DNA from: Sporocytophaga myxococcoides DSM 11118
Lineage (GTDB): Bacteria; Bacteroidota; Bacteroidia; Cytophagales; Cytophagaceae
DNA length: 64,000 nt
Direction: 5' to 3'
Assembly: GCF_000426725.1 (NCBI RefSeq)
Contig: NZ_AUFX01000004.1
Location: forward strand, 663,075-727,074
Shown: piece after piece, positions 37,314 to 60,617 of the stretch
How the letters are laid out: every line of letters begins with the position of its first letter
How positions within the stretch are numbered: the first letter of the stretch is position 1
Notes under the pieces: model-generated
What the model was told of the DNA's origin: nothing
The model's input: only the letters and a program-made list of their open reading frames with translations
Databases searched by the model: none
Translations under genes and position numbers: made by a program

Positions 37314-40300
37314 ATGGGGGAATTTTTAAACAGAAGTCGTCAGAACTCCGATAGAAAACAAAATCTTCATCATACTCAGCAAGCCCAAACCAATGGCCAC
37401 GAGCAAAAGCTTGTTCAAAAAGCAGAGGCAGGTCCGGAACAGGAGACATTATCAGAGTCTCCACTAGCAGAGGTGCTTCAGCGAAAATGGGATGGGGATG
37501 AGGGTGGAGAAGACAAGAATAAACCTCGTGGTCCTGTTCCACAAATGCGGGAGGAAGAAGAGGAGCCGGTTCAAAGGTATGGTCCTGTGCCATTACAACT
37601 TCAGACTGATTTAGAGGAGGAGCCTGTACAGCGCTATGGTCCAGTGCCCATACAGTTACAGGAATCAGAAGAAGAACCTGTTCAGCGTAAAGGTCCTGTT
37701 CCATCAATGAACCATTCGGAAGAGGCTTCTCAAAACGACTATACTTCATCATCTGACAAGATGCCAGCGTTAATACAAAAGAAAATGGAGTCATCTTTTG
37801 GAGAGGATTTTTCTGATGTAAACATTCACAAGAATTCATCACAATCAAAAGACCTTAACGCATATGCCTATACACAAGGCAATGATATACACTTTGCTCC
37901 CGGCAAGTATAATCCTGAATCACAGAAAGGTCAAGAGCTCCTTGGCCATGAACTAACTCATGTTGTTCAGCAGCGTGAAGGAAGGGTACAGCCAACCGTT
38001 CAGAAGAAAGGAGTAAATATCAATGATGATGAAGGACTGGAGAAAGAGGCTGATGAAATGGGAGAAAAAGCAGCAAAGGGGGAAAAGACAGCAAAAGTTG
38101 GAGCTGTGGCACCAGCCTCATCTTCTGAAGATAGTCCTGTACAAAGGTTTGAAGCACCCGGTCATGAGGCTGCTGAAAGAAGGGCTCTAACAGAAAAGAG
38201 GACAGACGGACAGGAGTTTAGCAATGAAGAGGTGTCCATGACTTATTTCGGAAACTGGATGAGAGATATGAATCAGGTTATGGTGCCGGCTTTTGCAGAT
38301 GCCATTGGTAATGATGGAGCCTTTGCCCTTATCAAGATTCTGGCCCTTAAGAAGTTTGGAAGAGAGATTAATCCTGAACTATTTGGGTATTATATTCCAT
38401 CAGAGCATATAGATAACCCTGCAGGTCAAGTACCAGGTGCTGATTATTTTACATCTGCTCCTGCAGTAAGCAGTAATCTTAATAATTCTGGAGAAAAAGA
38501 CAGATTTGGAACAGAGAAGTATCCCGAAAGGCCAAGTGAATATGTCACTTCTCAGGAGAACACAGATCCACTTACAGGATCGGTTTTAGGTGCGAATATT
38601 TTCTCTGTGGATGACAGTGGGGTGATGGCTTATATCAGGAGAACCAATATGCACGTGGAAAAAAGACTTGAGCTTGCTGCATTAAAAGGCAGGTCATCTG
38701 AAGGACTTGTACATTTTGGAGCAGCTATGCATGCTGTAGAAGACTTGTTTGCTCATTCCAATTATATTGAGATTGCATTGAATAAAATTCTTCAGGAAAA
38801 TCCTCCGATCAAAGATGATGGATCTCCCGGCGTGCTTCCGGAGCTTAAAGGAGAGGAGCGCCAGGTACAAACGCTTTCTTCTAAAACAGCAGATGGAAAA
38901 CCAACATTGGTAACAGGTACTTTTACCAGTCTGGATACACTTGAGTCTGTTGGAAGTGAAGGTGTTAAAATGCTGAGAATGGGACTTGCTCCTGCCGGAT
39001 CTGAAGGAGAAAGAAAGGCTCAGGAAGCACTAGTGAGCGCTTCTCTGAAAAAAATGGATGCACTAAAATCAAATCCTGCGTTAAGGGCTAAAATGGTAAA
39101 GGCTATTGAGGGAGCCCAAATCCCCATTATTTCAGGGCTTGGGAAAGATAATATCGACACGGTTGTTAAATCCGGCAATGTAAGTGACCTTTATGAACTC
39201 ATCAGACAAATAAACAAGTATGTTCCGGTGCTTGATATTCTTGCTCCAGTACACAATGCAATTGTAGCAACAATAAATACTACGGTACTTAAGCCTACAT
39301 CCGACAGAATAGAGAGTCAGATGCTTGGTGTAAAAGTTCAGGATACTCCACTGTACAAAGGACAAAAAGAGGTGAATGAAATTGTAAATGCTGGAGGAAA
39401 TAAGTTTAGTCCAATGCAGGAAATGACAGCATCGATAACCGGAGAAGCTCCTGATCCAAAGAAGAATCTTGCAGATGCCCAGAAACGTCAAGCACTTCTG
39501 AATAACACACCATCAAAGGTACTAGCAAATGCATCACATTCACAGTTAGCAAAGGATCATACAAATAGTATATTCTTCGGACTGGCCTTTAAGCTGGCAG
39601 TAGAAGCGGATAAGAAACTGCGGGATAAAATGCTTGCAGTGTGGTCCGGGTCTCCGCAAGTAAAAGACCCACATGTAGAAGAAGCCAAGACCTTCAGAGA
39701 AGAAGAAGCAAAAAGAGCCAAAGACGATAGTTTCTTTAGTCCCGTGAAAAACTGGCTTGCTCCTGAAGCCAGTGATAATGTGAAGATGGCTGAAGCGAGA
39801 TCTAAACAGGATTCTGTATCTTTAAAATATGGAAAAGAAGTTTATAATGAAGGTAAAAAACCTGGTCAGGAGTATAATCTTCAGGAAATGCGAGATGATT
39901 CTGCCAACAGGATTTTAGCGATATCTTCAACAATAAAAGGAATCGCAAATGCTCCGGGCAGTGCATCAAAATCCATTGGTGAGCTAAAGAAAGCTATGGG
40001 GAATAATAAGATTGATAACGCTGATGCAAATAAGTTTTTGGATAAGTCAATGTCAGAAACGGCAAGTGCTCAGAATACTGTTGATGCAAATTCACTCGTG
40101 AAAGAGTTAATAAAATCTTCTGACGATTTTGCAGGATGCGCACAATTAGTAAGGACTGCTGATACTTTGCAAAAGAGAGAAAATGCTTATAAAATGTTGG
40201 GGCAGGCTAAGGTTAAACTTATTCAGGTAATTAAGGTGATAGCAGCGAGTAAAGATAGAGATACTTTTGGGTTACCTGCCTTTGCATCCTTGTTAGTATT

Positions 40301-40634
40301 GATTGACAGAGAGATGGCTGTGGTTGCTCCCGCCTATACAACAGAGCAACTGCGGCTATTGAACGATCCAAATCCATCCAAAGCGTTACAGAATTCAATA
40401 ATAACGCTTCCATCTCTTTCCAGAGTGGATTCATTACCAGTTAATGACAGCCAAAAACAAGCAATCAAAGATCTGTTGCAAACATCAAGAGAAATAATAG
40501 ATCATCCTTTTGATTCTACCTGGTGGAAGCAACACGTCATCAGTTTTATAAGTCAGCATCATGACCAAATTTTGGAGGAAATTAAAGCAAGAAACGCTGG
40601 TTATGCTAACTTTGGGGGCGAGCATCATCATTAA
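37314..40634 (+). CDS. eCIS_core (DUF4157) modular protein 1 with HET-C-like cargo domain
   Basis: A 1106-residue protein without a Sec signal peptide. Residues 1-70 are a polar leader (MGEFLNRSRQNSDRKQNLHH, then EVLQRKWDGDEGGEDKNKP). Residues 72-130 hold one RGPVP and three copies of EEPVQR[YK]GPVP. Residues about 150-256 are the eCIS_core domain with DIHFAPGKYNPES and the HExxH motif HELTH (212-216), ending EKEADEMGEKAAKG. After a short linker the cargo begins: TYFGNWMRDMNQVMVP (310-325) and HFGAAMHAVEDLFAHSN (467-483) resemble the fungal HET-C heterokaryon-incompatibility family, which has bacterial members. The C-terminal 550 residues are helical and unrecognised, ending in an HHH tail. 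The next gene starts 18 bp downstream and encodes an exported WG-repeat protein, a candidate partner. Effector function is inferred. Confidence 0.85.
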   Translation: MGEFLNRSRQNSDRKQNLHHTQQAQTNGHEQKLVQKAEAGPEQETLSESPLAEVLQRKWDGDEGGEDKNKPRGPVPQMREEEEEPVQRYGPVPLQLQTDLEEEPVQRYGPVPIQLQESEEEPVQRKGPVPSMNHSEEASQNDYTSSSDKMPALIQKKMESSFGEDFSDVNIHKNSSQSKDLNAYAYTQGNDIHFAPGKYNPESQKGQELLGHELTHVVQQREGRVQPTVQKKGVNINDDEGLEKEADEMGEKAAKGEKTAKVGAVAPASSSEDSPVQRFEAPGHEAAERRALTEKRTDGQEFSNEEVSMTYFGNWMRDMNQVMVPAFADAIGNDGAFALIKILALKKFGREINPELFGYYIPSEHIDNPAGQVPGADYFTSAPAVSSNLNNSGEKDRFGTEKYPERPSEYVTSQENTDPLTGSVLGANIFSVDDSGVMAYIRRTNMHVEKRLELAALKGRSSEGLVHFGAAMHAVEDLFAHSNYIEIALNKILQENPPIKDDGSPGVLPELKGEERQVQTLSSKTADGKPTLVTGTFTSLDTLESVGSEGVKMLRMGLAPAGSEGERKAQEALVSASLKKMDALKSNPALRAKMVKAIEGAQIPIISGLGKDNIDTVVKSGNVSDLYELIRQINKYVPVLDILAPVHNAIVATINTTVLKPTSDRIESQMLGVKVQDTPLYKGQKEVNEIVNAGGNKFSPMQEMTASITGEAPDPKKNLADAQKRQALLNNTPSKVLANASHSQLAKDHTNSIFFGLAFKLAVEADKKLRDKMLAVWSGSPQVKDPHVEEAKTFREEEAKRAKDDSFFSPVKNWLAPEASDNVKMAEARSKQDSVSLKYGKEVYNEGKKPGQEYNLQEMRDDSANRILAISSTIKGIANAPGSASKSIGELKKAMGNNKIDNADANKFLDKSMSETASAQNTVDANSLVKELIKSSDDFAGCAQLVRTADTLQKRENAYKMLGQAKVKLIQVIKVIAASKDRDTFGLPAFASLLVLIDREMAVVAPAYTTEQLRLLNDPNPSKALQNSIITLPSLSRVDSLPVNDSQKQAIKDLLQTSREIIDHPFDSTWWKQHVISFISQHHDQILEEIKARNAGYANFGGEHHH
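37527..37703 (+). repeat. Acidic VQR-x-GPVP repeats of protein 1
   Basis: Coding repeats for residues 72-130: RGPVP, then EEPVQRYGPVP, EEPVQRYGPVP and EEPVQRKGPVP, spaced 18-19 residues apart. The same unit recurs in the three other large array proteins. Confidence 0.9.
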
Positions 40635-40652
40635 TAATTTGTAATAGAGTTC

Positions 40653-59941: not shown

Positions 59942-59951
59942 AAACCTTATT

Positions 59952-60617
59952 ATGAAGCCAAATATTTTGAACTATAATTTTTGCTTATTAATTCTTTTAT
60001 CAGTGCAAATCTCAGGCTGTAACAGTAGCTTATCAAAAAAGGAAATACAAAATGAATCTGCTGGTAGTATTAAGGAAAATGTATTAAACGGATCAAAAAC
60101 ATTTAGTTCGGAGGCAAATGGAGGCGATAGTTCTTTCATTTCTCGGAAAATTTTTAACGTTTCTACATTTGATAAAGATTTACAGTTTAAATCTTTCAAG
60201 GTGCTAGATTCAGCAGAAGGAGAACTATATTTTACAGGAGTAACTCAAAGGGACCATTTCATTAATGGAGAAATTTTTAATGATGAGGACTTACATACAT
60301 TTCATGCGACAATTATAAGCAAAGACTCAAACAACCGGGAATTTGGGGAGAATGAGAAATCATATTATATGGATGAAATTTTATATTTAACAGAGATCTT
60401 TTTTAAAGATTCTATTCCATATAAATTGGTAAAATGCTCGGATGATAAAAAATTTGAGTCTGTTCAAGGTCGTGATGAGTTTATGGTTTTAGCTTACGGA
60501 GGAAACCTGAATGAAATATCAGCTAGAGTCATTGATTCAACAAGTAGAATTCATAAAATAGAATATGTTGTTCGTGACATAGGTGATTTGACACCATTTA
60601 AAATTTGTGATCGATAA
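59952..60617 (+). CDS. Lipoprotein after eCIS_core gene 4, candidate immunity protein
   Basis: A lipoprotein of about 221 residues. The ATG at 59952 gives the signal peptide (NYNFCLLILLSVQISGC). The mature domain (STFDKDLQFKSFKVLDSAEGELYFTGVTQRDHFINGEIF) has no recognised family. The gene starts 10 bp after the effector stop, in the same place as the other candidate immunity lipoproteins. Confidence 0.78.
   Translation: MKPNILNYNFCLLILLSVQISGCNSSLSKKEIQNESAGSIKENVLNGSKTFSSEANGGDSSFISRKIFNVSTFDKDLQFKSFKVLDSAEGELYFTGVTQRDHFINGEIFNDEDLHTFHATIISKDSNNREFGENEKSYYMDEILYLTEIFFKDSIPYKLVKCSDDKKFESVQGRDEFMVLAYGGNLNEISARVIDSTSRIHKIEYVVRDIGDLTPFKICDR

Follow-up and report, generated by a model that had tools for sequence, protein, structure and literature searches.

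A candidate array of eCIS-type antibacterial payloads with matched envelope partners in Sporocytophaga myxococcoides

Do bacteria use extracellular contractile injection systems (eCIS) against other bacteria, and how would a producer survive its own antibacterial cargo? A case that bears on these questions is a 64,000-nucleotide stretch of Sporocytophaga myxococcoides DSM 11118 (the window; contig C2:663075-727074, running to the contig end, in a genome of 6.34 Mb in 21 contigs), which carries an array of large proteins with the eCIS_core (DUF4157) domain. An earlier note, made from the letters of this DNA, had read the array as a polymorphic, mostly wall-directed effector locus with partner genes. 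Having compared the window's genome (G000) with three other Sporocytophaga genomes (G016, G017 and G018), we consider it likely that this is a polymorphic array of antibacterial payloads; their predicted carrier, by loading in trans, is the single eCIS that we found in the genome, and their predicted effect is the killing of other bacteria.

The four large plus-strand open reading frames (ORFs) listed in the earlier note were found as described and encode proteins of 1106 (P1, 37314..40634), 1191 (P2, 42293..45868), 954 (P3, 47513..50377) and 1254 (P4, 56177..59941) amino acids; its truncated copy is an orphan leader of 80 residues (52289..52531, plus strand). A hidden Markov model search identified the eCIS_core domain with its HELTH motif in all four proteins (PF13699, E = 2.3e-28, 9.9e-28, 8.9e-28 and 8.9e-26 for P1 to P4; 90-99 bits against a cut-off of 22), at residues 150-223, 168-241, 171-244 and 163-236, respectively. 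The HExxH motif was present in all of the 18 effectors checked. Before this domain lie acidic QRxGPVP repeats, with 3, 4, 4 and 4 strict [VILM]Q[RK]xGP units in P1 to P4, while shuffled sequences gave 0.001 on average. Over the first ~80 residues, six copies of the leader can be aligned and share 19 invariant columns; they include the orphan and a fifth full effector (604 aa) on contig C8, which is accompanied by a small lipoprotein-like gene. This conserved leader may be an N-terminal eCIS signal. Within the genome, paralogous heads have DNA identities of 65-75% in the leader and 76-87% in the core. The cargo behind the heads differs, as the earlier note had claimed, the identity between P1 and P2 being 73-83% in the head and 18-38% beyond it.

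The same note had named, as readings that would count against its own, the lack of a leader or eCIS_core in profile searches and ordinary surface enzymes with Sec or type IX secretion system (T9SS) signals. The profile search found both head elements, and neither signal type was seen: by a heuristic of our own, there was no Sec-like N-terminus in the 20 array effector ORFs of the four genomes (16 with a readable leader start), and no T9SS sorting family matched P1-P4. These 20 effectors include two that are head-less at a contig end, one that is leader-less owing to an in-frame stop, and one downstream piece of a broken gene.

Each of the four proteins has a cargo of its own. P1 carries a Het-C domain (PF07217, 6.4e-24; best stretch at residues 297-375). 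P2 combines a putative glucosaminidase-like part (296-568), a PG_binding_1 domain (623-680) and a papain/C39-like tail (C1056, H1130, D1150), and this tail is kin to BtaeB, an effector of the Bacteroides type VI secretion system (T6SS), by sequence (9jdd, 1.5e-12) and by predicted fold. In P3 we found a Pesticin lysozyme-like domain (306-451; PF16754, 5.9e-6), LysM (533-562) and a C39-like tail (C717, H850, D866), and in P4 an SLT-like domain, PG_binding_1 (465-523), a second putative glucosaminidase-like part (686-960), an annexin repeat (993-1052) and a tail. The glucosaminidase-like part gave no Pfam match over the cut-off in the window proteins and, with a six-row profile, no credible PDB match (best E 0.0043, an unrelated protein). 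Indirect support comes from its homologues P0007, P0010, P0011, P0013 and P0016, which matched PF01832 with E-values from 4.6e-6 to 8.9e-4, none of them passing the cut-off, and VIA-align listed no relative, which does not exclude one. A resemblance of the P4 tail to M15 peptidases was considered from motif spacing, but BLASTP against the VanY cargo of G016 gave no support. Altogether, the cargo appears to be mostly peptidoglycan-directed, with predicted wall-binding or wall-cutting domains in three of the four tails.

Next to the cargo stand the partner genes. Behind 19 of the 20 array effectors the next ORF was on the same strand and secreted-like, compared with 44 of 160 control ORFs of the same genome, and for 16 of the 20 a secreted-like partner lay within 70 nt; a lipobox pattern was seen in 10 of the 19 (secreted-like being defined by simple hydrophobicity and lipobox rules, not by SignalP). 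In the window, P1 is followed after 18 nt by a WG-repeat protein with a signal-like N-terminus (40653..41987, plus strand; PF14903, 2.4e-47). The remaining partners are putative lipoproteins, all on the plus strand: A (45861..46658, overlapping P2 by 8 nt) and B (46709..47323) behind P2; C (50382..51104, 4 nt behind P3) and D (51142..51843, where the ORF opens at TTG 51109 and the ATG is at 51142) behind P3; and E (59916..60617, overlapping P4, with an ATG at 59952 also possible) behind P4. For the four cargo families present in at least two genomes, the partner matched the cargo in 12 of 12 effectors: Het-C with the WG-repeat protein (4/4), the P2 tail with A and B (2/2), P3 with C and D (4/4) and P4 with E (2/2).

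Partner homologues also occur without the cognate cargo in the arrays examined; there are five of these (G017_13856, of the B type, G018_12631, G017b_1101, G000b_4986 and G018_36829). When G000 was compared with one relative for each gene, six partners had a dN of 0.13-0.38, whereas P3 had 0.08, P1 0.12 and the RecG-like gene at the flank 0.01. Partners A and B matched no PDB chain by sequence, and for partner A two proteins were found at E 0.001 among 555 word-sharing candidates, namely its own entry and MYP_5034 of S. myxococcoides. Taken from sequence, the array partners are probably envelope immunity proteins. Outside the array, one close partner of this kind was seen by eye among the six other eCIS_core proteins of the genome (at L018). 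In the other 51 loci of a GTDB set, a secreted-like partner at a distance of 30 nt or less was seen for 7 of 58 eCIS_core ORFs, of which two belong to near-identical contigs; thus, the pattern exists beyond the arrays but is not the rule. Separately, the arrays of each of the four genomes contain dispersed paralogous lipoprotein-like genes of the CKKDKDN/CGKDKDD type, with 13 copies among the examined loci (window 54908-55600 and 60952-61569, L017:1556-2173, and other arrays).

Heads and tails do not always share one history. The P4 heads from two genomes carry tails that are 81% identical, but a tree built from 17 heads did not join them as sisters, and a tree holding them together was rejected (p-AU 1e-47). 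The P2 head was placed among the Het-C heads, but a Het-C clade without it could not be rejected (p-AU 0.175). Swapping is not constant, as the P3 heads of the four genomes group in a single clade. A constant N-terminal part, a variable C-terminal part and recombination between them (shown for the P4 heads), as in polymorphic toxins, are all observed. The orphan leader, which terminates after the first GPVP, is matched at the corresponding position in G017 by an orphan leader with a different end (L114:12075-12473), and is coding-like (dN/dS 0.22 over 71 codons); it could be what remains of a lost effector, or a short peptide that is expressed. At ~451-461 kb of contig C2 of G018 (L117/L118), one effector is split across two frames, and an in-frame stop interrupts one leader.

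We searched for the same leader in related genomes. Arrays of this kind were present in all four Sporocytophaga genomes searched, which hold 11, 9, 10 and 12 eCIS_core copies. The leader profile matched 4 of 19 genomes of the family, all of one genus, and 3 of 118 of the order, the third only at E 7.4e-4. In 55 GTDB loci, a set that may lack records very close to the window's genome, four (from two Sporocytophaga metagenome-assembled genomes) matched from leader residue 1 and the others from about residue 89 onward. The leader is nearly confined to Sporocytophaga. The arrays of G017 and G018 start behind the same two genes as that of the window, which we take to be RecG-like and NUDIX-like from reading their sequences. 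In G016, contig C3 ends with these two genes and contig C11 begins with the array; six of its effectors are on C11, and the seventh is on C22, a short contig. Judged by the gene order in G016, the window's array very likely continues on contig C8.

Does the genome have an injector for these proteins? The genome search that the earlier note had called for found a complete eCIS gene cluster on contig C1 (~434.5-454 kb), with AAA+, CIS_TMP (9.4e-111), Baseplate_J, gp25, Phage_base_V, CIS_tube, two gp19 tube, sheath and Pvc16_N genes. It is the single eCIS cluster found; other contractile-tail families were not searched genome-wide. The T6SSiii tube protein TssD was absent in searches of G000 and G017, the same search matching 20 of the 118 order genomes. 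No eCIS_core gene lies in the cluster, and the sole match on C1 is ~155 kb off. C1 has 768,796 bases, which puts at least ~315 kb between the cluster and each end of the contig, and so between the cluster and the array. Array and gp19 genes were on different contigs in all four Sporocytophaga genomes. Across the 118 order genomes, eCIS_core occurred in 23 and gp19 in 33, with both in 22 of the 23 (Fisher p 9e-15, overstated because the genomes are related); the exception, G031, had weak eCIS_core matches only. An eCIS_core gene and gp19 share a contig, ~15-28 kb apart, in eight genomes (G001, G047, G061, G063, G072, G097, G099 and G121). Megabases separate them in G024, whose genome is a single contig, and therefore remoteness is not unique to Sporocytophaga. 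A GH18 gene with a signal-like N-terminus (L015:4125-5897, contig C1) directly adjoins the eCIS structural genes.

These observations suggest how the array could work. Leader and eCIS_core together would form a packing signal that the particle recognizes, perhaps through the AAA+ ATPase. Contraction would set the cargo free in the periplasm of the target, where the wall enzymes would cleave both glycan and peptide. In the producer's envelope, the partners, either secreted or anchored by a lipid, would neutralize the toxins, and recombination within the conserved head would swap the cargos.

Several observations weigh against this antibacterial reading. We infer loading, toxicity and immunity from the sequence, and purified AlgoCIS, an eCIS of Algoriphagus machipongonensis, had no effect on any bacterial strain tested (PMC8894135). 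The array is remote from the eCIS, unlike most eCIS-associated toxins (EATs) in Danov 2024, where 88% lie within ten genes of an eCIS, a usual but not a required arrangement (PMC11297309). The six eCIS_core proteins outside the array (L016, L018, L019, L020, L021 and L022) have other types of N-terminus, and therefore the array leader is not a universal packing signal. On the cargo side, the Het-C domain of P1 is not a wall enzyme, and in the SLT-like domain of P4 (residues ~266-420; window 56972-57436) a Cys replaces the catalytic Glu, likewise in the G016 relative, so that the domain is degenerate and perhaps reused for wall binding. The P4 tail (residues 1070-1254) is unassigned: only three proteins were found (at least 81% identity, P4 itself being one), there was no Pfam family over the cut-off past the annexin repeat and no PDB relative (best E 0.52), and the predicted structure of residues 969-1254 had a mean pLDDT of 52. 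The C8 effector and G017b_1723 matched no enzyme family over the cut-off. Among the partners, one family (G017_28207/G018_20410/G018_21279) stands behind two different cargos, the partner of G018_17181 lies as far as 649 nt downstream, and for G017b_1723 there is no partner on the same strand. As a separate observation, four of the six non-array proteins score weaker (40-43 bits) and carry HEAWH in place of HELTH.

Could the conserved head itself be the poison? The eCIS_core metallopeptidase would then be the toxin, the lipoproteins would protect against it, and the tails would only aid passage through the wall. The HExxH motif in all the effectors checked fits this, and there is a precedent in VgrG2b, a periplasmic toxin whose relatives are often annotated DUF4157 and whose catalytic mutants are inactive (PMC6899460). 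However, the heads are alike in DNA, yet the partner families differ and track the tail; moreover, the toxicity of the AlgoCIS cargo Cgo1 is independent of its DUF4157 motif (PMC8894135). We therefore regard this account as quite improbable.

It is also conceivable that the proteins open the producer's own wall for the release of eCIS particles and that the lipoproteins restrain them. Peptidoglycan enzymes without a Sec signal resemble phage endolysins, which counts for such a role. Geller 2021 speculates that EATs may aid lysis at eCIS release (PMC8213781). Self-lysis, however, needs neither multiple paralogues with different tails nor tail-specific partners, effector-less partners or fast divergence, and it appears unlikely. 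The array might instead be delivered by another route (another secretion system, vesicles or cell lysis) and have no link to the eCIS, as its separation from gp19 in all four genomes and its nearly genus-specific leader would allow; the near-constant company of eCIS_core and gp19 across the order, and the lack of Sec-like N-termini, T9SS families and TssD in our searches, leave this a slim chance.

The part of the earlier note that called this a polymorphic, mostly wall-directed effector locus with partners agrees with the cargo domains, the matched partners, the arrays of four genomes and the eCIS cluster; the Het-C cargo of P1 departs from it, and delivery is a prediction. Its statement that this is not a described system was not supported. 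DUF4157 was reported as an eCIS marker by Geller 2021, together with 12 antibacterial EATs and the first EAT-immunity pairs, and the missing immunity genes at most antibacterial EATs were called an "intriguing mystery" (PMC8213781). Like EATs, the array proteins have an N-terminal eCIS_core (4/4), a putative C-terminal toxin and an eCIS gene cluster in the genome; they differ in their head-to-tail array far from the eCIS, their multi-domain wall enzymes and the partner of envelope type that follows almost all of the effectors. A pesticin domain, an EAT that is a peptidoglycan hydrolase and an immunity gene for EAT5 have been reported (PMC8213781, PMC11297309), and 68 predicted EATs have a peptidoglycan-binding domain (Danov 2024; PMC11297309). 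In AlgoCIS, two DUF4157 cargos were shown in the tube lumen. These, Cgo1 and Cgo2, resemble the array proteins in having a common disordered N-terminus, a central DUF4157 and differing C-termini, but they number two, lie within the eCIS cluster, and the main text nowhere uses the word 'immunity' (PMC8894135).

With the Bacteroides fragilis T6SS effector-immunity complex BtaeB-BtaiB (PDB 9jdd; compared by title and sequence) the P2 tail is related, while the delivery head and the machine differ and P2 partners A and B do not resemble its chains by sequence. The T6SS protein VgrG2b of P. aeruginosa has a DUF4157-type HExxH domain and acts in the periplasm, but there the metallopeptidase is the toxin and here it belongs to the constant head (Wood 2019; PMC6899460). 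Assignment as T6SSiii effectors is at odds with the 0 matches to TssD in the own genome. Our literature searches, in which subscription papers and preprints were mostly outside the scope, found no description of a payload array that is remote from its eCIS and paired with envelope immunity genes, and no paper pairing Sporocytophaga with contractile injection; searches for 9jdd and BtaeB matched only unrelated papers, and such an array is not mentioned in the available parts of two papers from 2026 (PMC12961389, PMC12923769). Each ingredient thus has a precedent (EATs, AlgoCIS Cgo1/2, T6SS pairs), and it is the combination that is new.

We give somewhat better than even chances to a broader view, in which the eCIS would be a multi-warhead weapon against bacteria. 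It would be fed from a separate chromosomal magazine with a genus-specific leader and interchangeable multi-enzyme wall-breakers, one of them with a warhead shared with BtaeB, each having an envelope immunity protein, and it would be reloaded by head recombination. Apart from that view, the array has a toxin tail that is common to a T6SS effector and to eCIS-type payloads. It also offers matched effector-partner pairs with predicted activities, effector-less partner homologues, a head swap that arose in nature and, with several copies in each genome, a candidate for the packing signal, and therefore makes loading in trans and immunity directly testable.

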